This document shows positions 741 through 41,876 of a stretch of 64,000 nucleotides of DNA, piece after piece. The stretch covers positions 7,671,493 through 7,735,492 of the forward strand of contig OU612071.1 of NCBI GenBank assembly GCA_914767715.1, written 5' to 3'. Position 1 is the first letter of the stretch. Every line of letters starts with the position of its first letter. This DNA comes from Membranipora membranacea (taxonomy: Eukaryota; Bryozoa; Gymnolaemata; Cheilostomatida; Membraniporidae). The notes below the pieces were generated by a model that saw only the letters and a list, made by a program, of their open reading frames with translations, had not been told where the DNA came from and ran no database searches. Position numbers and translations under genes: made by a program.

Positions 741-808
741 ATAGAGTTTGATGAAAAAGAGCTGAGAAAAGAAATCGCAACAACTATACAAAACATCCAC
801 GGTATAAG
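741..808 (+). other. Dynamin stalk exon, canonical version (alternative a)
   Basis: A 68-nt exon between acceptor atatag and donor AAG|gtgagt. It starts in phase 0 and ends in phase 2, so its last codon (Arg) is completed by the exon at 2233. The peptide contains [11 protein letters not shown] and ends NIHGI(R), a close match to the classical dynamin stalk (known family sequence). By position the split arginine corresponds to human DNM1 Arg399, an assembly-interface residue. It is separated by only 69 nt from a second exon of identical length and phase. Confidence 0.92.
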
Positions 809-3800
809 GTGAGTCTTGTCTATATCGCCGCAGCTTTTGAGTTTTAATTTTTACCACCTGGTGATTGGTATTTTTAGGCACCGATCGACGAAATAGAATT
901 AAGAACAGAAATAAGAATGGCTATATTAGGTGCCATGGGGATCAGGTTTGTCCGTGTATCGCTTGATAACCAGTGTGTGCTTTAACATTTCTATCATGTC
1001 CGTCCATCACATCGCCTAATTGATCACACTGACTACACTATGATCATGTGTATCTCTGATCGTTAGAGTCAGTTTAGTACGAGTACCTAACATAACCCGC
1101 CCTTAATAAGTAGATTGAAACCAACAGGTCTTCACACCGAATTCCTTGTGAAGGTACTCAGGCTAAGTGAATTAGTTTACTCTTGATTAGAGATATTCAT
1201 GCAGCAGTATATCTCGTCACCAGTGTCCCTATTGCTGATACTATCTCTACATCCCAGAGACATTCTGCTTACTCTGATAAAATTTACTAAGTTGGAACAT
1301 TGTTGAAGATCACCTTTTTCCGAATTTAGGAATTTATTCATTTTTCAATTACCGCCATCTTGATGGAGTGGTGACCATGCGATTTAATACAGTATTATGT
1401 AGTTTTGACCCGCACTTTAATGGTCTAGAATTCTTACAATTTTTCTCATGTTACATTTCCAGGTTAGAGAATCAGGTCCCTATAATGCTGTCAATTAAGT
1501 TTTGATTGGCTGACCAAAGCTCTGATACGCTGATCACAACCTGTCAGATTAATACAAATTACTCAATACTGTAAAGTACAAATATAGGTACAGCTTCGCA
1601 CCTAGCAGTTTTCTAGCTTTTCACAACCTAGCTGTTATTGTATCACACTTTTTTAAGCTATCAATAAGGTTAGATAAATCTTGCTCACATAGTACAATTT
1701 ACAACAATAATTGTTATCATTGGATAAATGTACTGAGGATGAAGTCAAAATATACAGGAACTGAATAGTAGTGAAAACTAGGAGTTGTCTCCACACAATG
1801 TATGAGGGGACAACTACGCAGCATTTGAATCCATTTGGTGATCTTAGTATTCTTGAATGAGCAAACAATTACTTCGTTGCCTCGTCATTACTACATTTTG
1901 AGAGAAAGATGAATAGTGAGATATATGAGTGACCTAAATTTGCCTCAATAAACCATATACACCTCCCAAGTGAAACTAAATTATAACAGTACCATTTAAA
2001 AAATAAACAGCATTAAAATGAAATACGATTGTGCTGATCTCAAATTAAAGATGGGTATCTAAAATAGCTCTCAGCAAATAGTATTGGTAATATAAGATTT
2101 CTATGAACCAATAACTTCATCAGCATACATTAAACTTCCTTAGTATTTAAAGTCGCCCTGCTCAATAAAAAATGTGAAATATATTATGTTTTATAAATCT
2201 TTGGCTAATTTTATTTTCATTTTTATTCGCAGGTCGGGACTTTTCACACCAGATAAAGCATTTGAGTACATAGTAAAGAGACAAGTAGAGATGCTAAAAG
2301 TCCCCACTCTCAAGTGTGTGGACATGGTGATGTCTGAGTTATCCAATGTCATCAACAAATGTACTGAAAAGGTAAGAGCTGATATGATTACTTACACTAC
2401 TGCTGCCACCCAGGCAAATTTGTGCTCATTGAATTCTGTATGGCTCCCTGATAACTAATTTAGGGTTTAATCTCAGATTGTTCAGGTATGAAATTGACGC
2501 ACAGGGTGATGACGTCATTATTTTTAACTAGTAAGACGATAAATACGTCACTACATGGGGCTAGAAAATTATTTTCATACCCTGAGTTTGACGATCAGTT
2601 TTTTGCAAATTGTTTGACCATAAGGTGACAAAGCTGAGATTGCAGCCTCATTTTCGAAGTTTTGAGCTATAGAGAATTCAATAAGCACACATTTGCCTGT
2701 GTGGCAGCAGTTGTTTAAACTGACTCACTGCACCTGATGGAATACTTTGTATTGTTCTAAAGAGCAGACCTACTACGTGAATGATGTTGAAAAAATTATG
2801 AGAATTGTGGTAGAAGAACTTTTTCAAAGGTTTTGCTGTTACACCATGAAATAAATATGAGCTTATTCCCAGAATCTAATTTGCATGTAGATCTCATTTC
2901 TAACATCGTGTGATATGTAGTGTTGTGTAATTCAAAGGTGACTGTATACTAGGACGTTTTTTGGGCGCTTTTTGAGTAGCTGTCTTCGCTTTCCGACATT
3001 TTTATCGGTCGACACTGAATTTGGACAGAGAGAACTTTATTTTATGAAATTGAAAACCAGAATTGTGACATGGGAAGACAACTCGCCAAAAGGTCATTTA
3101 AGTGTTAACATTGCTTAAAACGTTCAAAAAATTTGTATTATAAACTCGTTTTTATAGAGGTGTCACTTATATATATATATACACATACACTTTTATTGTG
3201 TTATATATGATTTTTTATATATTTTTTTTATATAATATTTCATATAATTTTTTATATATTTTATTTATATATATATATATTTTTTTTTTATATTATTATA
3301 TACTTGCTTTATTATAGATGCAGAGATACCCTCGATTACGTGATGAGGTAGAGAGAGTAGTCACAGATACTATGAGAAGTTATGAATCGTATGCTAAAGA
3401 TCAACTCATGCTTCAGGTATGTCTTAATACCAGAATCAGATTTTTTAAAGTGATTGGGAAGGAATCAGGTTTTTATTTATTTAGTGCTCAGTATATTTTA
3501 GGAAATTGATAAAGGTTTATTAACAGCATGTGACCCAGTTTCAACTGATTTTCACTCAAAGTTTAGATTGGAAGGTACTATAAAGGTACTATTCTGTACA
3601 CACCATCATTAAAATAGGACCTTTCTAGTACCTTCGCATCTCAGCTTTGAGTGAAAATCAGTTGAAACTGGGTCACATGCTGTGAATAAACCTTATAGCA
3701 GTTTTCAAAGTTAGACTGAGAACCTGATTCCTTCACAATCATTTTAATAGGTGTGTGAAGGGTGGTGAGATGGCAGATGGTCGCCTTTAACTACCAGGCA

Positions 3801-6800
3801 ATCAAGGCCACAAAGGTTCCTGAATTTCATCGGGGGAAGGGGGGGGGGGGAGGGTGGTGTTTGATTGGTTGTTCAAGCATTCAGTTACATATGATGTATA
3901 TCTTGGTCAGGTTGGTGTTTGTGTGTGTCTGTGGTTGCAACGGATTTAGTATCAATGGATGGGAAAATATTGACACGTGCAAGCTTTATAGTTTTTGATA
4001 ACTATCATATGGTATAATGTCGATTTGGCGAAAGCTGAAATAGCTATTTAGTCTATTTGTCTAGTAGGACAACTTGTGCTAGAAGAGATAGTTCCTTCTG
4101 GGCTTTTGGGAATTCCAGGCTAAAATCAACCTGATGGACATGTTGGTTACATGTTGGTTACATGTTGGTTACATGTTGGTTACATGCCTTATCCTCTATT
4201 GTAGATCGATATTCAGTTAGCTTATATGAACACAAACCACGAGGACTTTATCGGATTCGCTAACGCCCAGCAGAAGAACTCAGATCCAGGTCAAGGTCAA
4301 CGCAAACTTGGCAATCAGGTAAATATCTATATATGGAGGTCCTAAGGCTAAGAAGGGCTATGATTTTGTGTAGTCGGTGGTACTCTCATAAATCACTTGA
4401 CATTTTTGTGTTGGTATTGGTTGGGTCAACCCTGGTTTCCTACTCTTGGGAGGGGGTGGCTGTCCCCCTTAAAACAAATCGTTTCACAACTCTCCAACTT
4501 GAACACCTAAGATGTCTTTCATTAAATTATGTTGCCTAAATCTTTAAGAGTTCGGCCAAGTTCTGATTCTTGGTTCTCTGGAGAAGCCTGAGCGATGACT
4601 ATTACTTCCTTCCTCTTTATAATATGGCCTTTGAACTAGCTTTAGCAATGCTATCATGTTGTCATCAGTGTTCAAATATTATATCAGAACCCTGGCCTCC
4701 CCATTGTGGCTTAGGAGTGATTTTCTTTGCACAGCTTCCAAAACCATAAATATTGTTAGTACACTCTTTACCTGTGCTTCCTTCTTCTATAGCTGTGCTT
4801 CCTTCTTCTATACCATCCATCCTTGCCCCATCCCTTAGTTACAGACTACCCAAATACCAATTCATGTTATAGCCGGGCAGTTACTTACAATACAATTTTG
4901 TCAGATCCCTCTTATTCTCTGCATTATGATGTCACAGTCTCCTGGAGGTGCTTGCTTCTTGGATTGCACTTCCTGGGAACTGTGACATCATAATGCAGAG
5001 AATGAGAGTTACCTTCCCTTACGGGAGGCACGTTTTCAACCATCAATAATGCATGCCAAGTAGAGCATTGAATTTTCTTACCATGCAAATCTGACCAAGT
5101 TTTATCATAAATGCCTGACTATAACATGCTTTTGTCTTTGGATAGTCTCTAATTTGTTTGTTTCTGTAAAAGTACTCGCAAAAGCATGTCAACAATGTTC
5201 CCACAATGCATCTTTGATGTCAATCTCACATCTATGATCATTACTGGGGAATCCAGAAGATTCCCGGTAAAATCAGCTCAAAATTGCATTGTGGTATACT
5301 CATTGACATGCTTTATTAAAATTCTGCCCTTAACGAAATTTATTTGACATAATATTAGGGGGTTTTAGCTTTTTTCGTTTTAGATTAAACATCAGGTATA
5401 TGTTGTTATTACGTGTATTCTTCATTTCCAATCCTTGCTATACAGTCCTGAGTTATGTCGACCAGGTTGAACTTTTAATCCCTGCGCAGCGTTTGAGTGA
5501 AATTTTTTGAAGCCGCTTCTGCTTTTCAAAAGCTGTTTGTTACTGCGTCCAAAAATTTTGCATGTTGCAGTGATAAATGCACATGTAATAACTTCCACAT
5601 GGCAGACTTGGTGTAAACAGTCTTTCAATCATATGTCTTGTTGGCTTGAACACAGCATCGCCTGCAGAACTTACAAAGGGTTGTTTGTACTCATGCTATA
5701 CTAGTTGTGAGGCAAAATATAATTCTCTTCAGCTGGGCCTATAATCCTACGCATAATAAATAGAATCCTATGACATGCTATAATGCCTAAGTGTGACAGC
5801 CCTTTTTTGATCAGTTCTGTTGATTTGTGTTGAGTTACAGCCTGGTTTACCCACCCTTATGGCTGAGGGGGGGGGGGGTGTGGACCCCACATTCTGCTGC
5901 ATAACATTCAAAAACTTCAAAAACATGCAACTCTCTTGCCTCGATGGTTCGGTAAACTAGACATAATAATTTTAATTTTCGGACATTCCTTCTTTGGTTA
6001 TTTTTGAGTTTAGGTTATCTTATTAAAATGTCTAGGAAAGCAAAAAACAACCTCTGTTCATATCAAGGCTTTGCCATTGCAATGAACAAAAAAAGTAAAA
6101 CCTCACGCACAAGGACATGATTGAATGATGAAACCTAATTTAAAACGCAAAAATCCATGACAGGGGAGATGACAGACTGTAGACCCTTCTAGACCCTGGA
6201 CTTTCGCACTTTAAATTAGGTTTCATCATTCAATAATGTGTTTGTGCAAAGAATATCCTTTTTCTGTTCATTGCAATGGCAAGGCTTCGATATGAACAGT
6301 AGTTGTTTTTTGCTTTCCTAGACACTTTAATAGTTAATAATGTTACGAAACACTCTTCTGTGTGTTGCATTCTTCTGCTTCTGCTGTGTATTAAGTTGCA
6401 TGCGTGGTTGCATTACATGCTGTTTAGTATCTATGCTGCAGAACTGGAAAGTTGTTTGATGGCTCTGTCGGTCTTCTCTTCTGTCGCCCCACCCCCTCAT
6501 CTCCCTGCATGGCACGCTGGCTGACCCTCAGTAGCTGTCCTTCCTGTCAGAACTTCAATGTTATCAAGAGAAAAGAGAATTGGAAATCGGTCAAACAAAA
6601 ATGACAATTTGTCTTTTAGATCGGGAGATTGCTTTTGCGTTTATAGTGGGTTTATTGAGGCACCAATGTGATTGGTCTAAGTGTAGCAGTGATGATAAAC
6701 ATGCGGTGGGGGGGGGGGGTTGTTAAAACATGAATTATGATAAGATGGTGAGATAGCCACTGCCATCACATGTATCAAACCTGCTGGATTAGGTGCATTG

Positions 6801-9800
6801 TAGGCATATTGCAGGTACTATAAAATCGCATGTAGAGTGATACGTTTCCTACGTTGATGGATAGAGAAATTGACTAGTTTCTCAAGGTTTTGACAAAAGG
6901 CAATGATTCTCCTAGTGGGTGTTTAAGAATGACTGCTAGCCATTCTGATCTGGTCATGAAAACATGTGTAGCCTTGTTATTATGAATAAAGTATTTAGGG
7001 GATTTTCATTGACAAAATCATCATTTTATTTGAAGAACCAACAGATCAGGGTTTGTCTTCCATGTGCTTGAGCCTTACTCGCTTTTTAACTGTCTGATTA
7101 TACATCACATGGGGGTAATCCCAAATCTCTTTGCTTAAGAGATATAAATGAACAATGCGCTCTACATAAAAATCATATATAGGTTCTACTCGTATATTTA
7201 AAGTGGCAGACAACCACAAAAGTTATATTTTGATATTTGATGCGTAATGATGCACTCCTTCAAAATTTGGATGTCATAAATAAATGTTAAATTTGAAAAT
7301 TTTAATTATTTCAATTACAGACTCTCTTCCACCATTTTGTTTCAGTAACTCAAATACCCGTACTCTCCAAATGAATATATTTTTTGGAAAAATTGCTGTA
7401 TAAAAGAATTTTTTTTCTTGAATCGAGGCAGTTTTCTTTTGTTGTGTCAATCGTAATATATAAACAGTCATCTCAGTTACAAAATCATCTAAAAGAACAA
7501 TCTTATTGCTTTTAATAACAACAATTCAGCATTCTCTTTGAGATTATAACAGCTTCTCAACCTAATTCAGTTTAATGCAGCCATGGGGTGGAGGGGCTAC
7601 TGACTGCCCTGTGGTGCAGATCCAAAGCTTATACTTTGCATATCTATTGTTAAGTATGATGCCTACTGGTGAAGGTTTATTGTATCTTGATACGTATTTA
7701 GTGTTGCCAGTGTTGTCTTCTACTTTAACATGATGTCTATTTAAATCTGCTAGGCTTTTGATGACAAACAAATAACTATGCATGGGATCGTCTGGGCTTG
7801 AGTGGATTGCACCTTATTCGGTAACCACAGCGATTTATTGTTGTTAGGTTATCTATAAAAACTAAAAGTATGTTGCTGGTCTGCCGTTGGGTAAAAACCT
7901 GTCCTCGCACAATACCAACAAAGCTTACATTTTAAGAAAGTAAAAACAATCAATTCTGTATGTAAGATAAAACTTGTTCATGTCTTCCAACTCTCTCTAG
8001 TTCAAGAGTCTGACTTTTTTTCACCCTCTGATCGAAATGCTTGCTCTTGAGGTTACACTCTCTTAATATACTACTAGTCTTGTCCAAAGTTCCAATTTTG
8101 ACTTTTCACAATATGTTGAGCAATTTTTGAGCACCCATTATATTCACCAGTAATTTGGCTTGCTGATTGAATGGCCTGTGTCCTCACAGGCTTGTCAATG
8201 GACAGGCCTAAACCATACTTAGTTAAAATTGTCTGTTTTTGAGACCGTAGAAAATTTGATCTATCAAGCCTTCAAATTTTGGCCTCAAATGTGCAAAAGG
8301 CTGAATAGCGAACTGCTTCTCGCTGTGCATACTGCGGGTGGCACTAGACCATCCCTGTCCGCTCATGCCCATCTCATATCCGCTTCGGCTTTTTAGAATC
8401 GCCACAACTAAGGTGATGCAGGCATAATGTTAAGCTAAATAACATGATTATAATTCAGGTGGTAGTTTTATACAGTTGATGTCCATAAAGAACGGTGATA
8501 ACATCTACAATACACAATCCACACAGCTATCGGCGTCACTATATGCAACACCATAGCATGTTATTGCAGCGCCATTTGTAGTACCATCGATCCTACTGCG
8601 TTGGCAGTGTTCTTTATGACACTTATCGATAACTTTGTTGTTTACATGTTCATCATTTGTATCTTACTCAGGTGATACGTAAAGGATGGTTACAGTTACA
8701 CAACGTAAGCTTTATAAAAGGAGGTAGTAGAGAATTCTGGTTTGTGCTGACAGCCGAGACTGTGTCCTGGTTCAAGGATGATGAGGTGAGATGCTATGTT
8801 AATCATCGGTTAAAAATTTACCAATCTATGTTATAGCTAGGAGTTTCATATACTGTTATGCAGGTAAAACTGTCCGGTGAATGAAGATAATCTAGTAAGA
8901 AGATTTGATACCGCCAGAAATTTCGTTTGAAATCAGACAAAATTTTGAAGATGCCGTTTTCACCCTTGTTGAAATCACATACATTTTATTATGCCAGTGT
9001 TAGTATTGCCTGCACAAGAATTTGTAATTGGTACCATCCATACCTGTTAGTTGCTATGAATATCTGGGAGTCTGTAAGTGTGGTCCTGACTTAACCATCA
9101 AAGTGATAAAATATACTTGTTATGATACATATTCTATGCTAGGGATTCTGTTACCATATTTACTTTTAATGTTGTTTATTATAATACATTTTTCCACTTA
9201 TTTAATTCAGGAGAAAGATAAGAAATTCATGCTGCCTTTAGATAACATCAAAGTGAAGGATCTGGATGCCGGGTTTATGTCCAAACGACACAACTTTGCA
9301 CTTTTCAATACAGAAACTCGCAACGTCTACAAGGATCACAAAGGTATTAATTTCTACTTAGACAACAAGCCACATCATGTACCATCTCATACTGACACTT
9401 CTCCAGGCCCAATAATTAATTGGTGCTTCGGAATTCATTGAATCTTTAACCCACATCCCAGCGTGAAAAATACTTCCTATTCAATATCGAGATGAGGTAG
9501 ATTGAAATGCCCTAGATACTGATCCAAGAGAGGCAATTCTATAACCAAATTCCCAGATATATCAGTTCTAAAATAGTTGCCCCAGCACTTCTTAATCTTA
9601 TAAATAATGCTGATGATAGCATCTGGCAAGAGGTGCATTACAATTAATTGATGTTTGCCTCTTCAAATATGAATTTTGTTCAGGATTGCACTTTACTGCT
9701 CCCAAAGGTTATATCTGGTTTACATTTAAATTAGTTGGTTTTAGCCTGTTCTCTAACATTTCTGAAATTGTTCAACTCACAATGAACCAGTTCTCTCTGA

Positions 9801-12800
9801 ATGACAATGAAACGTTACAACTCAGACAACAAATGGCTTTGTATACAGACACCGAACAATACAGACACCAAATGCGATAATGTCAAATCTTTCTCCTTTT
9901 CCGGTAGGTGTGCTATTGGTGAGTTACACTGTGGGATTAACAAGGCAGATTGACATGTGATAGGGTTGTTATTGTAGAGTTACAGCTGTCATGTGAGACC
10001 CAAGATGAGTTGGATTCATGGAAAGCCTCACTACTCAGAGCTGGAGTTTACCCAACAAGAGACGCAGAGGAGGGAGAGAGCGGTGGGGGTAACAGAAAGG
10101 TATGTGTCCCTCAGCACTTCATGTGCATGCACTGTTTCATTTTTTCCTCAAGTACTCAAGTAATATTTCATTCCATTTGAAAAATAAATCTTTAAGACGA
10201 ACTTGGTGAAATTGAAGTGAAGTTACAACTGTTGATTTTATCTGGCAAGGGCACCTCTCATATTTGATCACAAGAGTGATATTGCCAATCCTACAGTGCC
10301 TCATTGCCAGCTTCTATGACATATCATTATCTGGCTGAATGTAACCAAGAGGCTGGAATGTCATTCCTTCTTTGTCTGACTTGGGAGCTTTTCTCAGGAA
10401 CCTGGCATATCGCATGTTTTTCCCAGCGCCCATTAGGATGACATTTTAACCCCTCTAGCTGATACTTAAACATAATAAATGGATTCTAATTTGTTTCAGT
10501 TTGGGGTAAAGTAAGATTTTGCAGAGTGTACTTTGGTTTGATACTGCGTCTAATTGAAAAATGTGTCTCATTTGGCGGATTTGTAGCTTGCCCTCTGATT
10601 GGCTCCTTGAAAATCAATGAGCCAATCAAAGGAAGTGTTACACTTTTGTTTTATAGAGAACACAACTAACACATTTCAAGTGACTTGTGCCGTGATTTCT
10701 CAGTCTAAACTGCAATATCTTAGTTGTTGTGTTGTGACTTCAAACTGTGTGTAAGTGAGGATTTATAAATTTATCTTTTCTTTGTTTCACTTTCTGTAGG
10801 CTGTATATTTTGTATGTAATGGTATACCAAATCCCCAAACTAATTCAACTTCCACGCTGATGAATGTTATGCAGCTGTTTCCGATATATAGCTAATATCC
10901 ACAGAATGTTAGTTCAACAGTCCCTAATGTGTGCGTTTAATTGATACAGATTGATCACCGAATTAATTAGTCTGCTGAAAATGCATGTTGTACCCAAAAG
11001 ATAGAACAATTTCGTGCGCATGTTAAATACAGCAATGCTTCCCTTTGATTTTAACGTTACCACTACCTTCTTCCATATGCTTTCTGTTCCTTCTCAATTA
11101 TGACTTATTTATTTATTTATGATACTGGTTTTTGTTCACAGGGTAGAGACCACGGGTCGATGGATCCCTTGCTGGAGCGTCAAGTGGAGACAATTAGAAA
11201 CTTAGTCGATTCTTACATGAAAATAGTCAATAAAACCACCAGAGATATGGTGCCCAAAACTGTCATACATCTTGTCATCAACAAAGTAAGTAACTAGTCA
11301 GTCATGGAGGGAAATCACTTGACATTCATCAGCTGTGAGCAATAAAATTCGATGAGTTGTCTTGGTGAAAACTGGCTGTTCCACCATTGCAGTTGATAGA
11401 AACTATTTGCTGAGACAGGGATGTAATTTTTTGCATTCAGCATTCATTCTTTTTCAGAATATTTCCCTTGCTTTTTACATTTACCAATATACCAATATCT
11501 GCTATTGATGCCTGTATATTACTTTTAAAAGAGCTCTTTTTTCTAATCGCGATTTGTAGACTAAAGACTTTGCTATGAGCGAGTTATTATCACATCTCTA
11601 CTCAGCGGCCAATCAGGACGATCTGATGGAGGAATCTGCAGAAGAGGTCGACAAGCGAGAGGAACTGCTCAAAATGTACCATTCCACTAAAGAAGCTCTC
11701 AAAATTATCAGTATGTAGCACACCATCTTCTATTTATGTTTCAGCTCTGTTTTTCACCATCGAACACATTTCCAGCAATCTTTTGTATGACTTGTCAGTT
11801 TGCATATCTTGGAACCTCATGATTACCATTTGTCAGTAGATGATTGTGTAGCCTCTTGATACACCACTTATGGAATCAACCTTTGAGAAATTTGTTAATT
11901 GACATGCATGTCGTATTTGGATTCAGAATTAAGTCTGAATGTCTTACTACAATCTCAAAGTTGTGACCTACTCTCCACCAATCAAGTGTCTCTAAGAGCC
12001 ACAGGTATGCTCACAATCCGCCCATCAACTGATAAATGCGCAGAGAGCATGCATTTATTCACTGCTCAACAAAGCCCATATTGCTCAGTCTTTTTACTAA
12101 GCCAAGTGCACAAATGGAACCTCATGTCTTAATGTTACCACAATTCCCATCTCTCACTCTTTCTACAGGCACAGTAAGCACACAGACAGTGAGTACATCA
12201 CTACCACCACCTGTCAATAATGATTGGCTGAAAACAGAAGAACATCGAGGGCCCTCTCCTGTCAGCCATAATGCGTAAGTAGTGTATCAAGTTTATATAG
12301 TGTGCTACACACATGTGATGGACGGGAGTCGGGTTGGCCGTCCGATTCAGGTCATTGGACCCACATAGCTCAAGCTTTTCATTGAAACATGTGGTTTCGT
12401 AGAATGTTAGACAAAAATAATGAAGCCATTTGTATGCACTGATACCGTTTTGCTTGGCAAACCACTCTTGGTACTAATTTGCTGTCACGACGAAGGTGAT
12501 AAATTTTCACCCGATTAGTTTTAAAATATTCTGCAGGATTAATTCGAGCCACAGGTATGTTTGTTTGCTTCAATGATTATGCAAGATAAATCGGTCTTGT
12601 TGTCCAGAGAAGTACCTACTAGAGAGACTTTTATTAGAATCAAAACCATTCACATCATATGCCAGCTCTTCCCTCCTCTCATAATGAGACTTATGTTTCT
12701 ACTACAGCCGAGCTGCATCACCATCGCCTGCACCAGCTGGAGCCAGTATGAGGCGACCTGCTCCATCTCTACCCAACAGACCAGCGCCAGGACCTCCAAG

Positions 12801-15800
12801 TAGGTCAGCGCCAAGCATCCCCGCAAGACCCGGCTCATCTATGCCACAAAGTGTCGGAGGTCTACCCGCACCACTTATACCAATGTGAGTAGATAACTTC
12901 TAGTATTACACATGTTGCTATCAACCTGTCAAATCGATTTGCTTTGCAATTAGATTTAGTCCCGACAAACGTTTTAGAGCATTTATTCAATCATGTTTCT
13001 GTGTGTTGTGTTTCAAACTGCCCAAACCAAAGCTAATCAGGTATAGTCATCAACCAAGCTTCATAAGTTTGGTCTGCTATAAAAAAAACTCGACTGATCT
13101 TTAAAAATTTCGGTCAATAGGAGAAATCTGCACCTTTCCACAGTGTGATCTAACCAGGATATCCGAGTGTGTTTCACCTGGGTATGTGAGAGAATAATAT
13201 ATCCCATTCCAAATAAATCACCCATTGTTAAACCTCCCAGCCACACTGACATTGAGACTACACTATTAACATGTGTATATCTGTTCGTTAGAGTCAATTT
13301 AGTACAATAACCTAGCATGCACCCATCCCTAGTTGTGGCAATTGAACTCGGGTCCTCACACCGGATTCCTCGTGACAATACTCATGCCAAGAGAGTTGAT
13401 TCACTCACTTTCGATCAAAGATATACATGCAATAGTATATCACTTTATCAGTGTGCCTCCCAGCTCCTTTTTATGCGTTTCGATGTCACAAATCAACGTT
13501 TGAACAAAATCCACTGTGGATCCAAGGAGCCACACTGATGATGTGATATACTATTGCAGATGTATCTCTAGTTGGTAGAGAGTGAATAAATTCACTGAGC
13601 ATGCATACCATCACAGGGAATTTGGTGTGACGGTTCGGGGTCAATTTTAGTAATTAGGGGCGGATACGTGTTAGGTACTCATACTAAACTGACTCTAACG
13701 ATCTGAGAAACACATCCTGAATAGTGATATCTTGATGTCAGTGTGCCCAAGAGCTTCCATGGGATTGCCTCTCACATGCCCAAAGTCGTTTTGTTGTCTC
13801 TAACATCCGAGCAGATTTGACTATCCTTGTCTGAAATAATTTAAAGGGCGGCTAATATGATGGCAGATGGAGCTAAGTATGTATTAAGTATATCTTCATA
13901 TGTTGTCTGACATCATAACATTTATATAACCCCTCTAAAAACATACCCATAGACATGTCTATGAACATACCTATCACCCATGGATAGCAGGCTGCTCGCT
14001 CATTTTACGTATGATTTTGATGATTGGGCTGTGCGGTTGGATTTTGTGATGCCATTACCTCCAGGTGGAGAGGGGTCAGCCAGAAGACTGTCAGAGAGAT
14101 AGATATCCCCAATGTGTGACATAACTTCTCCCTACAGATAAAGCTGACTTTTTATGACAAGAAAATAGTACCTGATCGCCCAGGTCGGCTTGCAAAGCGC
14201 AAAATCTATCCGCAAAACCACAGCTGTGTAAACACTCACTCAACAAAATCAGTTTGAAAAGGAGGCAGCATCCTGCTGTTCATGCTATCACTTATGCTTG
14301 CTGGGTATTGTCATTTTATTCGGTGCCAAGTTGGCAAAATGTGCCTGCTCGGTATAGCTCAGAGACATCCCCTAAGTTGGAGCCAAAATTGAAAGCAAAT
14401 TGGAGCCTACATTAATTAGTAAAGCTTGATATATCTTGCTCTTTCCCGTACTGCAGTAACACATACTCTAAGATAACAAAGGTTTTCTTTTCGGTAATAT
14501 CTTATTCTAGTGCTCATGAGGCTTATTATTTGAATACAAAATGTGACTAATAGATATTTGAGCTAGTACCAGAAAAACAAATTTGTGAGGGTTTCTCTTT
14601 TTTTATTCTCAGTAGCAGTCATTGCATGACTTATTGTTGTTGCTAGCCATTAAAATCGCTAACATAACCGGGATGGTGACCTGCTATTTTACATACATCC
14701 CAATTCTTCTTGGTGTAGGGAGGCATGCTTTACCCTCTTATTGGCAAGGGTTCTTAATTCTTTATAAGGCTATTCCAGCGAGTCCATTATTGACAAAGGT
14801 TCATACTTGTTCATAAGGTTATTGTAGCGAGTCTGCTCACTTTTGTTTGACCTAGTACATACTCTATGCATTTATAGTGGTATTGATGTTGTATCTATGT
14901 TGTCATGGGAGGTGGATCCAGTCACACAGGAGGTGGTATTTGTGTCTCGGCTTCATGAAATCCCTACCATCCTCTTCTGAGAGCCTTGCATTCTGCTATC
15001 TGTTTATTGGGTCCATGGCTCTCTGAAGGATTGGCTGCCTATAGGGGGAGACAATTGTCATAGGTAACAACTCAATAATTTTTACCATCCCCTCAGCTCA
15101 ACCCTAGAAAGCAGGTACAAGAATGAAGAAACATCAAAGCGGCTGCATTTGTGGTACTACTTTTGCAAAGGGAATATAAAATGAGCTGTCATCTACCTTT
15201 AGCTTGTCTTGCTTTCTTAAGGTCGACCAGTAAGGGACACTTGGGTAGTATTTTTCGTTAAGTTAGGCCAGGGCTGGGTTATTCTTTTTATTAGATTGAT
15301 TCAACCATTATTTAATTCCCTGATGAACACTGATTTTACCTGCTTCAGATCGGCGGCTAAAAAAGCCCAACCACTGATCAAGTTTTAACTTGATACTCAA
15401 TTCGTAAGTCATAGCCAAACATGATTTAGTAATATTAGTGTTAAAAGAGTCGGCAGTGGGAAAGTGCAACGGCGGTTCTTTTTAGGGCAGTAATTACCAA
15501 CAAACCCATATCCCACAATATTTTGTTAACGAACATCTCTGTTTTCTGGATGATTTAACTTGAGAGTCAACCATACACACTAATCCTATTGTCACAGCGT
15601 AAATGAGTGCAAAGTCAAATATCTCTTACTGGAGCAACAACTTGTGCTAATTCTACCGAAGATCATTCCGTTGCACTTTTCCATCGTTCGGATATTCGCT
15701 TGTCTCCTAATTTTTGAAGTACTGTGTCTAGAAGTGATTGGCTTTGAGTTGATATTGTTGTATAGTGTGAGTTTCGGCACCCAAATCCAGGTTTTGTAAA

Positions 15801-23716: not shown

Positions 23717-26475
23717 ATGTCTATCAATCCACCAACAGGGTAAGCTACAAACACTTCTGTGTAACAAACATTGGGTTAAACCATAATGATTTAGCAAACA
23801 TTGTTCTGTATCACACAGAAATTCATGGTAGAACATTGTATTGTTTGCCAATGTGTTTCTTTGCCAGACAATTCGGGAGACTTATAAAAAAATATTTTAA
23901 AACTCAGCTTAGAGAGGGTAAAAATACTAAATTGCTGATACTGAAATTTTGGCTGCCAGAAATCTTGATGTTATGTTGCCAAGTGGTCTCATAATGAACC
24001 GTTAATTGATTATAAGTTTTAATGATATTACCACACTCTTAGGCAATTTTCTATCGGTACTAATGACCCCGGGCATTATCGAAATCATCTTTCAGACAAA
24101 ATGATAAATGTGGTGACACCTTTGTGTTAGTAAGGGATATGCGTTGCTTTTATCGCAAAAAGTTATTTGATACCCTAGGAGTGAATATATTCAGCTTGTG
24201 TTGTGTGTAGCTAGTTTGAGAATGGCTTCATTATAGGTATTATTAAGCTAGCTAGGGGCTCCTTTGAAAAATATATGGTCGACTTTATGTTGGCTTGCAC
24301 CAATTTTCACTAGCTATCTTGGAGTTGTATAAAAATATTACGTAGAGTAGATGTCAGCTTACTATAAACTTCACAACTTCAAGCCTGTGTGAAAAAGCCC
24401 GTTATTCATCCTCGTTTATCAACATAAATGCGTAATTTTGACAGTAACCTGGAACTCTGGCAAAGTTTGGATAAGGAGAATATGTTTGTCAACTGAGCTG
24501 TTGCTGTTAATGTCAATAACAAAATTCCATATTATCGATTTTTCAACGATGTCAGTTTTTCATATGTTGTAGAGTAAAGAAGCGGATGTCATTGAGAGAA
24601 TTGGATCTGGCTGAAAACAAACAGAAAAAGAACGACTTCCTCAAAGCTCTGAGAAATGTGAAACGGTTACCTGCAGATGATCCTTCTTCCTACTGGTCGA
24701 TTGCCTCTTATCATGGAATGCCCTACAAGAAACGGCAGGTCCCTCCTTATCAGATCCCACCCAATGATGAAGGCAACGCTGCATGGAATGGCTATTGCCA
24801 GCATGGCAACATTCTTTTCCCCACATGGCACAGATTCTATTGTTTAAAGTTGGAGCAGTCCTTGCAGGCAGCAGTACCAGGCGGTGATGTCATGTTGCCA
24901 TATTGGGACCAAACTAGTAAGGCTAACCTTGCCTCCGGGTTGCCCCCTATTCTGCTGCAGAAAACAGTCACTATTGATGGTGTGTCTGATATTCCAAACC
25001 CTTTGCTCAACTTCATTCTTCCTGAATGTATTACCGAACCTGCAAAGGAAGACAATTCCGATGCTAATGCTGAGTTTTATGTCAAACCCAAGGGCTATAC
25101 CACTATTCGCTATCCCTACTCCGGTATTAAAAACCCTGCTGCTGCCAAGGTTACTGCTGATAAACACAATCAGTATATCGATGGCCTCAACAAAGATCCT
25201 GATACCATGCTCGCTGACAACGTTCGCTATTGGCTAACTGTAGGGGGAGTTGGACATAACATCCGTTCATTCAACAGCATCTCAGATGAGTACAAGAAAG
25301 CTCTGGAGCTGTCCTCCTACAATATGTTCTCAAATACTTCCTCATCTGCAGGTTCCCAGTTTTGTTTGGAGCAGGCACACAATGAAATCCATCTGTCTGT
25401 TGGTGGTTTTTCTCAGCCATTTGTTCAAAAGGATGGCAGTGTCAAGGTTGATGATGATGGAGATGTGAAGTACTTTGGCTTGATTGGTGGAAGCAATGGA
25501 GACATGGGTGAGAATGAAACGGCTGCATTTGATCCTTGTTTCTTCATGCATCATTGTAATGTCGATCGTATGTTCTGGGTTTGGCAGAAGAAATGGGGGC
25601 ATACTACCAGTATCCCTCTCGATCCACCTAGATGTCCCAAAGACCCTAAAGATCAAGGATTGACTAATGAGGGTCAAGGCCCCACCCCTTACCAAACCGT
25701 AAATCAACAGCTAAACTTCCAAACACCCCTGTACCCCTACACCAATGCTTCAACTGGAACCAAGATGACATCTGCTGATTGTTTCAACATTGAGAGTCTA
25801 GGCTACCAATACACCATCGGATCCCTTGACCAAGATATGTGGCCAAAAACTGTACCAATACAGCATTTTGTTGAGCTTGAAGGCCAATCCTGGGAGGATA
25901 TCATTCCAAGACTAGAGAATGCAGTGCAAGCCGCCGATTCACCTGTTGTTGCATCTTTTGACACCACCTACTTTGCTCCTCCCACTCCGGACTCACCCAT
26001 TGTACCTATGCAGTTCCAGTACGCTGACAAGGATGAAGATGAACCAGAATTTGTCAAGATCCGCAATGATATGTTCAAAGTAAGAAAGTACCTAGCTGTG
26101 AAAGACATGAACAAGAACAGCATCAATGGATCGTTCGTAGTTCAAGCCTACTACAAAAAGGCCGAAAAGCTTTACTATATCGGTCAACGAGGTGTTCTTA
26201 GTCGATGGAATAGAGAAGTCTGCACAAACTGCATGCAGCGCCCAAACATGGCAGTATGCTTTGCTGTCGATCACATCCTCCCTAACCTCAAGGATAAATT
26301 GTCCAACATCGTTATCATCATAGCCAGCAAAGACCCTGAGACTGGCAAACTTATCCAGACGAAAATTGTCCAGGGCGACCCCGTGGTGTTTGCGGCAGAT
26401 AAGGGAAGCTTCAAACCAACAATCCATCTCATCACATCTTACGAACAGAGGCTTCTCGCAACGGCAGTAGCCTAA
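23717..26475 (+). CDS. Tyrosinase, fungal-type cytosolic (type-3 copper), two exons
   Basis: Oxidises monophenols and o-diphenols to quinones (melanin, cross-linking or defence chemistry). Exon 1 codes 23717-23739 (MSINPPTG) and exon 2 is 24573-26475, giving 641 aa. The upstream ATG is preferred because the splice keeps frame and the resulting TGVKKR-MSLREL segment resembles the N-terminus of fungal tyrosinases; 24586 is the alternative start. CuA ligands by position are His55 (SYHGMP), His85 and His94 (HGNILFPTWHR). CuB ligands are His277, His281 (AHNEIH) and His335 (MHHCNVDR). Cys83 two residues before His85 (CQH) is the fungal thioether pattern, and Asn follows the first CuB histidine. A YxY motif (GYQY) ends the core. 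A C-terminal domain follows, with a CxxC (CTNC) like the copper-loading motif of Aspergillus tyrosinase. No signal peptide or membrane segment is visible. Confidence 0.93.
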
Positions 26476-29390: not shown

Positions 29391-32377
29391 ATGGATTCAT
29401 ATCACACTGCTTATTTTTGGTTCACCTTTCTCACAGGTAAGATAATTGTACACCCCTTACCAACATACTGCTAATGAATATGCATTGAGAGGGGCGGACT
29501 AACACATCATTAAACTACCTTTTTTTCTGACTGCAGAAGAGAGTAAATGATTAAAGGAGAAATTTGGCATCAAAGGATTCGCTATCAGACTTCAACAAAG
29601 TGGCCCAGCCAGACATGTTCTCTAAAAAGTGATTAACCTTAGTTTTTTTTTGTAGTAGCCTGCAATGCAATGATCATAAAACAGACCTTCGAAGCTGTCA
29701 TCAACTACCAAACCTTCTATGAGGATCACATTGCTTCTTTAAGTAGCACTACGGCTAGATCTGTGGTAGTGTGCGGTTCGTTTTGTACAGATGATGATAT
29801 GTGTGTAGGAATTAAGTTCAATGAAGCAACTTTGACGTGTGAATTCTACAAAGGATGTTTAACAATTTCGGATACAAAGAGCAACAAGAGTAATAAAATC
29901 AAGGTTTATGTCCAACAGCTCCGCGAAGATCTAGCATTGGGTAAGTTTCTCTCGAGAGAAGCTAAATGATAGCATCCACCAATCTAACAAAACTGAGGAC
30001 TCAATTACTGATATTCCTGACTGGAGGCTTAAGCTTTGTTCATGAGTGTTTTTTTTTTCTTAATTGAGGGCTGTGATAATGTAACAGAGGTTTTCTTCAA
30101 AAAATCTTGTCAGAATTATGAAAAATTTTGAAAGCCAGAAATACTGTGAAATGACTAGCAACAGGAGGAAAAGGAATTAGACCGAAACATGTATGTAAAT
30201 CTCTTGAATTAGATGAGACAGATTATGGTTAACATTTAAAATTATGCGGAAAGCCCTCTTTTGGAGCGAGTATATTCTTTCAAAAATACCTTGTGCTGAT
30301 AGGTTGCCATGTATGTAGATACCATATATCATATGACACAAGACATACCGGAAATAGCCGTCTAGGAAGGCCCTGAATTTCTGGAATAATGTCAAACTTT
30401 TATTGACATTGATGCAAAGTTGGTCTACGTGATACTACCACGTTAGCGAGTTGTTCAAAGTAAAACAAAAACGTTTGGTATTGTCATTTCGAATAAGTTT
30501 CTTGTTGTTAATCTGCAGATCTTATTCTAGAAATGTGGCCCTGTAAAAAGGTTGTACAAGAATATTTATAGTTATATGTTTTCATGTTCAGCAACATTCT
30601 ATTTTTCCTACACCAATTATCTATCAAGTGAAGATAACTATGACATAATTATCAGTTATCAGATTTCGACATGCAAACTTTATAGTTCTTGTCGCAGTTA
30701 TTGTTCTGTAATGATAAAATAACACTTTATGTTTCCCTACGATATGCGACACTTTTGAAGTAAAGTAGATTAAAGACACGGTGACTTGATGACTACGGAA
30801 ATTCCGATTCCATACTTACCTTATTTATATATAAACAACAAACCGATGCCAGTAAAGAAAAGAAAGTAGATATATTATATCTACTTTCTTTTCTTTACTG
30901 GTATCGGTTTGTTGTTTCAATTTTAAACATTTTCTAGATAAGCAAGTGAGCTCACCTCTGATGCACGGAGGAGGATATGGTAACATAACTGTAATAACTG
31001 ATGGACAGTGGATGGATTCTTATGAAAAAGACAGTCCAGTTGAACTATCGCAGGTACATTTCACTTCATATGCACTGGAAGATATGTGGTTCAACATTGA
31101 TCTTGAATTGGAGCATGTGATATGTGCTGCAAATTTGCTCATCAGAAATGGTGAGTAAATTAAACATCAAATACTAGAATATATTCAACTGCTCCTCATG
31201 TTGAAGATTTGAATGATATAGACTGGATTGCACTATCCCAATGAACTACAATTATTGTATATACTCTTGATTGCAGCTTAGCCTCAAATTCCCCAAATTT
31301 GTCCCAAACAACATATTGGCAATGTTAGGTGAGGTTTATTCCGTAGCAGATAACCTCAGAAGTGGCAGTTTGGTGGGTGTGTACAGTACAGTCAACAGAG
31401 AGCCATGCATATTCATCATTCGTGAAAGGAGGGACATTTTCTGACAGAACCAACTATTGTGTTCTCTGTCAGTTTTTAAAATATCTCACAGTGATGTAGA
31501 TGTCTGTTCAACTCTCTCGCAAGAAGTTTTGAATTATTTCGCGTCTGTACCACTATTGTTCCAGAACTGCGAGTCAGCAGATATCATTGTCAAAATAATG
31601 ATGGTTCAATACTTTTATTTAAAAATACGCACAAACATAAAACTAGATTACATATATGTTACTGGGAAGGGGTGAAATTTGTTTGATGATCTCTTCATCC
31701 AGTTCATCCAGAATGGGAGACCCTATAGCATACCTTTTTTGTTAATCGGTCTGACCAGTATTTGCCCGGCTATACAAAGTGATACCTGGCAACATCAAAA
31801 CAATGTACCATTTCGATCATAGAACCACTCTTGGTTCTTAAGCGTTATCATACATAGGCCCAAGTTGATATAAAATGCCTATATATTTAGGAAGGTGTCC
31901 ATTTTAGACAGAGCGACAGAAAGTAATTTGCACCGCTGAATCCGAAAGTTGTATTTTGCTACTTGTTTAGACCTGAAGCCAGTTGAGACCAAAGTAGCTA
32001 GCTGCAACAATTTCAGTGCAATTGGAGTCAGAGACTGATGTATTCATGAATGGTTTTTTATGACACTTTTATGAAAAATTATCAGACACTGAAGCAAAGT
32101 TGCTGATTTTAGATTTTCAAGGAATGAAGATAATTCTTTTTTTCTTTTAGGAGTTGGCAGAAGTGATATGAGAATATCTGTGAATTCTGATCTTATGCTT
32201 ATGACCGACCCTTCTGTTAGCCAATGTGGATATCATGATGGGGACCTTGCAACGGGATGGCAGCTTATCAAGTGTGACAGACCAATGAGAGGTAGATATG
32301 TAAGAGCTGATCTCCTTTCTCTCAGTGGCACGGGAATGAGACTGGCGCTTTACGAAGTTCTAATATATGGCTATTGA
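29391..32377 (+). CDS. Secreted PAN + fucolectin/discoidin-like protein, gene A
   Basis: Four exons: 29391-29436 (signal peptide), 29656-29940, 30938-31150, 32151-32377; 256 aa. All introns are phase 1, typical of shuffled extracellular modules. Exon 2 encodes a PAN/apple-like domain with cysteines in VVCGSFCTDDDMCVG, TCEFYKGC. Exons 3 and 4 form a jelly-roll carbohydrate-binding-type domain: ITDGQWMDSY, MWFNIDLELEHVICA, CGYHDGDLATGWQLIKC, GRYVRADL, ending LYEVLIYGY. The family usually binds sugars in immunity or matrix. The HxRxD fucose-contact motif is not clear, so the ligand is unknown. It is the most divergent of the three copies and the only one on the plus strand. Intron 2 ends in a long hairpin. 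Confidence 0.88.
30833..30917. repeat. Near-perfect 85-nt palindrome with 42-bp arms
   Basis: The arms 30833-30874 and 30876-30917 are complementary except for one position (gatgcc versus gatacc), around a single central T. The right arm ends 20 nt before the first base of exon 3 of gene A (30938). In RNA it would form a very stable hairpin next to the branch point and acceptor. Non-coding. Confidence 0.95.
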
Positions 32378-36485: not shown

Positions 36486-38169
36486 TTAGTAGCCGTAAAT
36501 GAGGAATTCATAAAGCCCTAGTCTTACAGCTGCATATTTTTCGACCCAGAACAGTTCAGCTCTCACATAACGGCCTCGCCGTGGCTTGTGACATTCGATA
36601 AGTTGCCAAGGAGGTGTGAGTTGTCCGTGATGGTAACCACATTCGATATCTGATCGTTCATTCAGAAATGAGTCATTCTTATATACAGATATCTTCATAT
36701 CTCCACCTCGGTCTAAAAGCGAAAAAAATTAGTTAAATACTGGTGTTATTCACTGAAGTTTACAGCTAATTTGTTTGATTGCAAGCCAGTTAAAATATGA
36801 CTCAGACATTTGCCATCAGGTTTAAATTAATTGTGATGTAATTTAGTGAAACCAGCTGAAGGTGTAAACTTAAAAATTACATTAGTCAAAACATTCTTAT
36901 ATATTTTTCTATTCATACCGTGTCGGCTGTAGATGTTCACAGAGCATATAACATATTCATTCCTCAAGTCCACCTCAAACCACATTTCGGTAAGTTCCAG
37001 TGAGGACACATATGACTCAGATTTTTCAAGCTCAGTACCACTGGTATAAGAATCCCTCCATTGACCATCTGTTATGACACTGATGTGTCCGTGTTGAGAA
37101 ATTTGCATTAACGGTGCAGTGACCGATTTATCTGAGAAAAATAAGTGTAATCTTTATAGATGGGTGCATTGTTTTAGATGATTACTACCATTAATTATTT
37201 AGTTTTTCTCATAGAGTTATTTGCGGTGAATGCCACAGTTTTGAACAATTTTTTGGTTCTTGTTTTGCGTATTGGGATAAGCCATAAAATTGAAGACAAT
37301 AATTTAATATTCTTGTCATCAGGAATTTTTTATTACATGTGGTCTTGTGATAGTCAGATACAACAGTAACCATCAGAAATGCTGTCAAAAAATGCAAGAT
37401 AACATATCAGTCAAGTTTTAAAATTTCTTGCTGATGAGTTGATTTCAGCACTGCCTATGATCATTTAGCGCCATGTCAGAAATTCGTTCTAGCTGCTACT
37501 ATACAGCTCATGATCACAACTGTGACGTCAGTATTGCACAAACATATCCTTAAAAATATGCTTACTGTAAGCCAGATCTTTGCGGAGAGAAAGAGCGTAG
37601 GCTTTGACATTCGCAGCACTTTCAGATGTGTTGAGTATCGTCAAACATCCTTGATAGAATTCACATCTCATGGATACCTCATCAAATTTGAATCCTGCAC
37701 ATGTAACATCAGTTGTACAGTGTGTTCCACATTCTACCGCAGATCTAGCTTCAGTAGATGTTATATTGACAGAATCAAGTGCGTAGGAAGATTTGTAATC
37801 ATCCACTGCATGAAACTTTTTCTTATTCGCTTCTGTGTCACATTTAGCTAAAAAAGAGGCAAAAATCTTATAATTCTAGATAATCTCCTATATCTATTTG
37901 TTTATCATGTTTTTAGAAAAACAATTGGCATCATTTAAGCGTAAAACTTATTTGATAAACCAATAACTTGTAAAATAAAATTCAGACTTATGGGTTTTGA
38001 AATATCTAACATTAATTCTGATTATTGTCTTAATTTATGTTTACTTGTTTTTGTAATTTCATATCAGTTTTTAATGCAAGTAAAGGATTATCCACAAAGA
38101 GATGTTCAGAAGCTATCACTTACCAGCGACCATGATGAGAAGGAAATGGGCACCGCATTTTAACTCCAT
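36486..38169 (-). CDS. Secreted PAN + fucolectin/discoidin-like protein, gene B
   Basis: Four exons on the minus strand: 38124-38169 (signal peptide MELKCGAHFLLIMVA), 37566-37847, 36919-37131, 36486-36712; 255 aa. Exon sizes 46, 282, 213 and 227 nt and phase-1 introns match genes A and C. PAN-like part: VECGTHCTTDVTCAGFKF, MRCEFYQGC. Lectin-like part: ITDGQWRDSY, MWFEVDLRNEYVICSVNIYS, ECGYHHG, PPWQLIECHKPRRGRYVRAE, ending YEFLIYGY. It is expected to be secreted and disulphide-bonded. It is close to gene C in sequence, and both carry the long repeat on their 5' side, so B and C arose as one duplicated block. Ligand unknown. Confidence 0.9.
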
Positions 38170-40350: not shown

Positions 40351-41876
40351 GTAAACAGGCTAATACTAAATACAGTTCGATCAGGACACAGTACGTAAAA
40401 GCAAAAAATAAGATCGAATCTGAGACAAGATCTGGGGCAGGTTCGAAGTCGATAAAAGTTTGGGCATATTATGATGTTGAGGTTGCCTCCCAAGCTGACT
40501 CAATTCATCGATCACCTCTATCAGATGTAACTAATGACCAGTTGGCTGAGGTAGGAATACATCTAATGTACTTTTGGAGTAGGCCTGCTATACTTCTCAT
40601 CTCAACTACACAACAACAAAACGCCTACAAAGCTGCAATATATGCAGTACCTATAGACACATTACCCTTCATTACATTCAAAAGAGTAAGCAAAGGCTGT
40701 AATTTCTACGTTAATCAATCAAGACTAGCCGTGGCAGGTTCAGTGTGCGCATACACAGAGTCTGTCCTAACTTAATTGAGCTCATTTCTTCCAAAAATCA
40801 ATCGTGATACTACATGTATATGACTCAGTTAAATCACCATTGTGTTTCGTAGGAAGAGGCCATTCCAGCACTGGACTATGACTTGGTATCGGAAGTATCC
40901 ACCACTCCACACCACGCCACACCACGCCACACCACGCCACACCACGCCGCACCACACCGCACCGCACCGCACCGCACCGCACCGCACCGCACCGCACCGC
41001 ACCGCACCGCACCACACCAAACCACACCACGACACACCAAACCACACCACACCACTACCACACACACACCAGCAACATCCAGACCAGGTAAAAGGAAATC
41101 AAGTGAGGATGTTTACTCTAGTATCCTGAAGCAAGCCTGCGGGCAACTTAAACAGCTAGGTGAAAACATGATTCAACAGAAGAAGCCATCACATCCAGCT
41201 GAGCAGGATGACTGCCACCCAGTGTGAATTAAATTTTTCCCCAGATAAGGGCTGAGCGTTGCAATAGATATTTTTCCCTTTGGTATTACGTTTTGAAACA
41301 AAATGGAATTTAGACTTTTTCTATAATTGGTGGTTATTGAAATTAGCGTCCAAAAGTATATAAGCAATGTTCAATGGGTTTTGAGTGACTTGCACGGTAT
41401 AAGTAGAATAGGATTTTGGTATTGGCGCAGCCCTAAAATCAGGAGAAATGGAAATTTAGTCTTAAGAGATGTTTTCAATAGTTTGTCAATAACTCAAAAA
41501 AGTCCCCTACAAGAGTAAGTAGCTAAGAAGATTTGGTCAAAAGTTTGTGTGCTTAGCTGAAGCAGGACTGGAAATATTGGAAAGAAAAAAATCATATATG
41601 TTAACCATTGGCAATGATAGCGTTTTATTTCACTGTGTGCACTTTTATGCAATGCATAATGCCGAAAATCTGCGTCAAATTAAAGACCCCCGAAACAGGG
41701 CATCATGTAAACTGAAAATTGAGGAAGTGTTATTTCAAGCTCAATGTTTTTCTACTCAGCAACCTAACACCCCTCCCTTCATGGCATCATCACAATCTTA
41801 TCAGCCGCCACCACCAGCAGCTACTTCAAGGTTCCTACCCCTTATTTACCATGATATGGACATTGGTTATTAAATA
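40351..41876 (+). pseudogene. Harbinger-associated MADF/Myb-like gene (partial)
   Basis: Exon 40351-40550 encodes the second half of a MADF-type DNA-binding domain (SSIRTQYVKAKNKIE, SGAGSKSIKVWAYYD). Exon 40853-41227 continues in frame (EEAIPALDYDLV) through a low-complexity Pro-His-Arg-Thr-Ala tract into SSILKQACGQLKQLGENM. A further open stretch at about 41650-41876 (IKDPRNRASCKLKIEEVLFQ) matches the usual C-terminus. This is the second protein of PIF/Harbinger transposons, which guides the transposase to DNA. The first half of the domain was not found. It runs towards the DDE gene on the minus strand. Confidence 0.65.
40903..41060. repeat. Pentanucleotide/decanucleotide microsatellite (CACCA/CGCAC)
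   Basis: About 150 bp of caccacgcca and ccgca units inside the second exon of the MADF-like gene. On the plus strand it reads as repeated PHRTA and PHHT-like peptides without a stop. The several long frames on both strands here are by-products of the repeat. Confidence 0.95.

Follow-up and report, generated by a model that had tools for sequence, protein, structure and literature searches.

A gene of the bryozoan Membranipora membranacea for dynamin, which severs vesicles from membranes, carries two adjacent, divergent versions of exon 9, here called A and B, each of which encodes the start of the stalk loop L2. The best explanation of their sequence, and one that we consider likely, is that A and B form a genuine pair of mutually exclusive exons that arose by tandem duplication of exon 9. 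Actual use of each exon in mRNA is something we infer from the genomic sequence. The pair lies in a stretch of 64,000 nucleotides that was analyzed as a whole (the window), and the sections below set out its structure, the evidence that B is more than a chance or decaying copy, the way in which the choice may be enforced, and the part of the protein that it would change.

Structure of the gene and of the exon pair

The window apparently begins within an intron of the dynamin gene, whose exons run along the + strand from position 741 onward and are, in our model, all bounded by AG and GT (Table 1). The exon that precedes A and the GTPase domain would fall before the window start; none of three dynamin queries found a match in positions 1 to 740, and only the human query reaches that preceding exon. 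In the spliced product the stalk (Pfam PF01031, Dynamin_M; 126.3 bits with exon A and 119.3 bits with exon B) is followed by a PH domain (PF00169; 49 bits, residues 141 to 243 of the product), a GED (PF02212; 85.8 bits, residues 275 to 364) and then a proline-rich tail. Judged from these four parts, the gene is a classical dynamin.

Table 1. Features of the dynamin gene within the window
Feature	Position	Strand	Details
Exon A (exon 9 type, canonical), corresponding to DNM1 residues 377-399	741-808	+	68 nt, phase 0 to 2, AG/GT
A/B intron, with YTNAY branch-point candidates	809-877	+	69 nt
Exon B (divergent copy of exon 9 from a tandem duplication)	878-945	+	68 nt, phase 0 to 2, AG/GT
Intron 3' of B, ending at the acceptor common to A and B	946-2232	+	
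Next exon, common to A and B and homologous to vertebrate exon 10a/10b	2233-2371	+	46 aa; single copy within the window
Stalk exon	3318-3416	+	
Stalk exon	4205-4318	+	
PH-domain exon 1	8672-8785	+	
PH-domain exon 2	9211-9343	+	
PH-domain exon 3	9978-10099	+	
GED exon 1	11142-11285	+	
GED exon 2	11560-11710	+	
Exon between the GED exons and the proline-rich tail exon	12169-12274	+	
Proline-rich tail exon	12708-12884	+	3' end is a donor (not the last exon)

Re-reading the sequence reproduced exactly the original prediction of two 68-nt segments that have the same phases, each with an acceptor and a donor, and lie 69 nt apart. The acceptors read atatag for A and ttttag for B, and the donors gtgagt and gtttgt, respectively. 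Both exons are read in phase 0, and the final two bases of each belong to a codon that is completed by the exon at 2233 (AG plus G, Arg). The peptides that they encode are related, as had been proposed, with 11 of 23 residues identical (38 of 68 bases). When A and B were joined, a stop was reached five residues beyond the junction codon; when both were skipped, a stop followed after seven residues. Inclusion of both exons or of neither thus breaks the frame and leads to stops within eight codons, so that a functional mRNA needs exactly one of the two. The predicted break on using both is therefore correct and applies to skipping both as well. The pair had also been placed one exon upstream of the vertebrate choice point, and this position is borne out by the common next exon, which encodes 46 aa, the same length as the vertebrate region 399-444.

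Outside the dynamin gene, the window holds an intronless open frame of 651 aa with a tyrosinase domain (24520-26475, + strand; PF00264, 134 bits). There are also PAN-like open frames on both strands, at 37528-37875 on the - strand (PF00024) and, recognized by eye, at 55401-55727 on the - strand and 29643-29969 on the + strand; these are perhaps a local gene family, to go by their sequences. A simple-sequence stretch at 40833-41098 contains open frames of HTTPHH/VVWCGV-type repeats on both strands.

Resemblance of exon B to dynamin exon 9

To place B among comparable segments, we collected every AG-68-GT segment on both strands of the window. There were 433, of which 108 were open in frame, and the ranking given here covers these open segments, by their scores against three dynamin exon-9 peptides. 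Exon A scored 90 and exon B 49, while the third best segment scored 6, so that the window contains no third open exon-9 copy scoring above that value. The Dynamin_M model gave a similar picture: the 117 aa encoded by the next three exons had a baseline score of 105.9 bits, which rose to 126.3 bits upon addition of A and to 119.3 bits upon addition of B, a gain of 13.4 bits for B. When another copy of exon 2233-2371 was sought by ungapped comparison, the next best score was 23, versus 235 for the exon itself, and a scan of intron 946-2232 found no additional copy of exon 9 or exon 10.

On the ranking of segments and the rise in Pfam score, we reject the idea that B is a chance open reading frame. 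More broadly, we regard it as extremely unlikely that B is either a chance open stretch between AG and GT or a piece of a paralogue placed beside A by an assembly error. Although B is only 68 nt long, its score of 49 compares with no more than 6 for any other of the 108 open segments apart from A, and a matching phase and length beside an intron of only 69 nt would be surprising in a paralogue fragment put there in error.

We also compared the pair with dynamins retrieved from a protein collection clustered at 90% identity, using the best 120 of 5,867 matches and the best 120 of 5,532 matches. Apart from proteins with a doubled exon 10, the nearest among the best 120 of 5,532 were the dynamins of Bugula neritina (P0029) and Watersipora subatra (P0129); every protein that ranked higher carries two exon-10-like copies in one sequence, which inflates its score. 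Exon A is identical to the Bugula dynamin at 20 of 23 residues and to the Watersipora dynamin at 20 of 23 residues. A B-type exon, defined by a score of at least 60 where B itself scores 110, was found in none of the 209 retrieved proteins, 200 of which include the exon-9 segment. Bugula and Watersipora are represented by one protein each among the 209 and, given clustering at 90% identity and the use of the best 120 of 5,867 and of 5,532 matches, B isoforms may be hidden. A protein search with exon B embedded in a 50-residue region yielded five candidates and no match; the region was probably too short to bring up dynamins, which makes this search little informative. Scans of contigs described as viral and prokaryote gave no match in the viral contigs (viral_contigs) and 28 pattern matches, none of them confirmed, in the genome contigs (genome_contigs), a result with no bearing on animals.

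Some of the retrieved proteins have unusual arrangements of their own. Two exon-10-like copies in one sequence occur in 45 of the 209 proteins, 43 of which are vertebrate by name; the other two come from a moth and from the sea louse described below. The moth protein (P0001) contains an identical repeat of the region, including two identical exon-9 copies, and is the only such case among the 209. In the Watersipora protein (dynamin isoform X3, from a cluster of nine member sequences), the segment AFGGTVLGTD at about residues 378-388 replaces the single residue 377 of other dynamins; by its sequence, exon 9 or a neighboring exon may have alternative splice ends in Watersipora.

Constraint on B and age of the duplication

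A comparison of A with B by the Nei-Gojobori method gave a dN of 0.50, a dS of 2.19 and a dN/dS of about 0.23, a rough value that comes from 23 codons with saturated dS. We then set B against the exon-9 peptides of the retrieved proteins, 26 different sequences each scoring at least 60 against the vertebrate exon, with the word "invariant" being relative to that choice. B retains eight of the nine invariant positions and has the consensus residue at 4 of the 14 other positions (Fisher P = 0.009, with the retained counts made by eye). The invariant residue lost from B is Asn394, which every one of the 26 peptides has; B also lacks I395 and H396, both of them near-invariant. At residue 391, B has Ala, as do 22 of the 26 peptides, and A has Thr.

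Simulated neutral decay rarely produced a sequence like B. An open frame with at least 11 identities arose at a frequency of 0.0016 in a one-lineage simulation and of at most 0.022 in a two-lineage simulation held near the observed base identity, and both figures leave the intact length and splice sites uncounted. Against our reading, the two-lineage neutral simulation gave much higher values when base identity was left free: 0.41 with 20 mutations per lineage and 0.09 with 30. The copies in these cases still shared a mean of 48 and 42 identical bases, respectively, versus 38 observed. With a constraint of 0.3 on B and the same conditioning as above, the frequency was 0.06 to 0.64 at 40 to 130 mutations; this model had no case in the conditioned range at 20 or 30 mutations.

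The alignment of exon A with exon B was matched by only 25 of 2,000 shuffles. The 3' flanks of the two exons (184 of 2,000 shuffles) and their 5' flanks (1,072 of 2,000) do not stand out, though a faint remnant of homology may persist in the 3' flanks. Exons that still align between flanks that no longer stand out indicate an old pair. A recent duplication was rejected on this ground and on the low base identity of the two exons, as well as on the finding that the six residues that set A apart from the consensus of the 26 peptides (I377, K386, A389, T390, T391 and Q393; compared by eye) are all absent from B. Some of these six departures also occur in other species.

These results are what one would expect if B is an old copy that selection has maintained for the peptide it encodes. 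The rival reading, which we consider unlikely, is that B is a dead or dying duplicate, a pseudoexon that is skipped and whose frame and splice sites have survived by chance. Loss of the invariant Asn394 would be in keeping with such decay, as would the absence of a B-type exon from the retrieved proteins and the far greater divergence of B, which matches the Bugula and Watersipora dynamins at 11 of 23 residues compared with 20 for A; moreover, 28 to 55% of neutral duplicates retained an open frame in simulation. However, an open frame combined with 11 identities is improbable under neutral decay, and the exact length and both splice sites add to this; B also keeps eight of nine invariant residues, and the exons stand out in alignment where their flanks no longer do.

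How the choice may be enforced

The intron between A and B is the shortest in the gene model, the next shortest being 274 nt. Downstream of the last upstream AG, it contains YTNAY branch-point candidates with the branch-point A at 847 and 853, which are 38 and 44 nt from the donor of A, respectively. A looser match (TGA, with the A at 864) lies 55 nt from that donor and only 14 nt from the acceptor. One study counts a distance of less than 50 nt between donor and branch point as potential steric interference (PMC5740500). The combination of candidate branch points less than 50 nt from the donor of A and the frameshift makes steric exclusion plus frameshift the likely means of enforcement. With the probable branch point for the acceptor of B less than 50 nt from A's donor, splicing of A to B would be impeded, and transcripts that include both exons or skip both would be frameshifted and then discarded.

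Predicted U1 duplexes differed between the two donors. The donor of A formed a duplex of -10.7 kcal/mol, the best of the 12 donors in the gene, while that of B, at -7.5 kcal/mol, ranked seventh of 12. With the strongest donor on A and a weaker one on B, A is likely to be the default exon and B the regulated choice. Competing RNA structure was rejected as a mechanism of exclusion on the strength of the local fold, which around the pair was no better than that of shuffled sequences (z = +1.79; 97 of 100 shuffles folded at least as well).

Introns of 69 nt can be spliced in many animals, which lends something to a different account in which A and B are genuine exons whose use is not always exclusive, and transcripts that include both reduce the amount of dynamin through frameshift and NMD, in the manner of a switch. 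We consider this account quite improbable. The A+B transcript does reach its stop five residues past the junction codon, the loose branch-point match does lie 55 nt from A's donor, and exon-joining reads were reported for 22% of human clusters with exon lengths not divisible by three in the same study (PMC5740500). Yet the better branch-point candidates are only 38 and 44 nt from the donor, and NMD alone needs no dynamin-like peptide from B, yet B retains one.

Predicted effect on stalk loop L2

Taking A and B as mutually exclusive exons, we asked which part of dynamin the choice would change. Alignment with DNM1 in the PDB equates exon 9 with DNM1 residues 377-399. The end of the exon, with G397 and R399, falls within L2, which is described as the core of stalk interface 3 (PMC12550548). 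The original prediction had the exon leading into the Arg399-type assembly interface; the location was right, but the relation is closer than this wording suggests, in that the exon itself encodes the start of L2 (IHGIR395-399). The L2 sequence is NIHGIR in A and GAMGIR in B, so that G397, I398 and R399 are kept while N394, I395 and H396 are changed. Within the preceding helix, B matches the animal consensus at positions 380, 381, 383 to 385, 387, 388, 391 and 392 but not at 382, 386, 389, 390 and 393. Going by the sequence, these changes come at intervals of three to four residues, a spacing that would place them on the same side of the helix. A structure model of the Bugula dynamin was poor (mean pLDDT of 64.5 and pTM of 0.39, from 25 sequences), and no conclusion rests on it; it showed two helices, 382-394 and 396-400, interrupted at 395, in Bugula numbering, which equals DNM1 numbering plus 1.

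The importance of these residues is known from mutants. Two structural studies describe IHGIR395-399AAAAA and G397D as assembly-deficient mutants used for crystals (PMC8437954 and PMC9653092), and another states that R399 mutants fail to self-assemble, with R399A being mainly dimeric (PMC6051998). The two isoforms would be expected to assemble via interface 3 with different strength or geometry, and the choice between them would tune the readiness of dynamin to polymerize or the tightness of constriction.

Relation to known exon pairs

The closest known system is the vertebrate exon pair 10a/10b. According to the report on this pair (PMC2916854), it encodes residues 399-444 and was observed in vertebrate DNM1 and DNM2, lamprey included, but not in invertebrate dynamins; the fitful mutation in exon 10a impairs self-assembly. 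The two systems share the gene family, an L2 located at an exon junction, and tandemly duplicated exons of which one is used in frame. They differ in the exon that is doubled, which here is the preceding one (residues 377-399), exon 10 being single within the window. Since the exon for the vertebrate region 399-444 is single within the window, the exon-9 pair is, by its sequence, a separate event from the vertebrate exon-10 pair rather than its orthologue. Both choices nevertheless touch L2, from opposite sides of one splice junction.

Another protein among the 209, DNM1_3 of the sea louse Lepeophtheirus salmonis (P0022; 566 aa), contains two different exon-10-like segments with an apparent translated intron between them. 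Judged by its sequence, this copepod may have an exon-10 pair, which would go against the statement of a single form in invertebrates. Like the bryozoan gene, it is an invertebrate dynamin with a duplicated stalk exon at the same interface; unlike it, P0022 doubles exon 10 rather than exon 9, and one predicted protein carries both copies.

Substitution between tandemly duplicated exons is also known from other families, such as the tropomyosins, and one survey reports independent duplication in orthologous genes for 27 human/fly gene families (PMC9741552). The bryozoan pair resembles these cases in that homologous adjacent exons vary one region of a protein, but differs in that two lineages have been hit at neighboring exons of one interface. 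The main text of that survey does not mention DNM1 or DNM2. Within the abstract starts, passages and sections of the literature searched, no dynamin was described as having an exon-9 pair.

Significance for dynamin regulation

Dynamin polymerization depends on interface 3, whose L2 spans two exons, the second of which is swapped in vertebrates. The authors of the report on exons 10a and 10b tied the vertebrate exon choice to complex neuronal function because invertebrates had one form (PMC2916854). If a selected pair at the first of the two exons does exist outside vertebrates, the assembly contact would be a repeated target of splice regulation, and B would be a natural variant of a motif that has so far been altered by disabling mutations (IHGIR to AAAAA, G397D and R399A). 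We raise tentatively, as an idea more doubtful than the pair itself, that a choice between alternative exons at L2 has arisen several times independently among animals, with vertebrates and a copepod each using exon 10 and this lineage using exon 9, and that the B form assembles more weakly or differently and so may serve as a built-in brake on fission.
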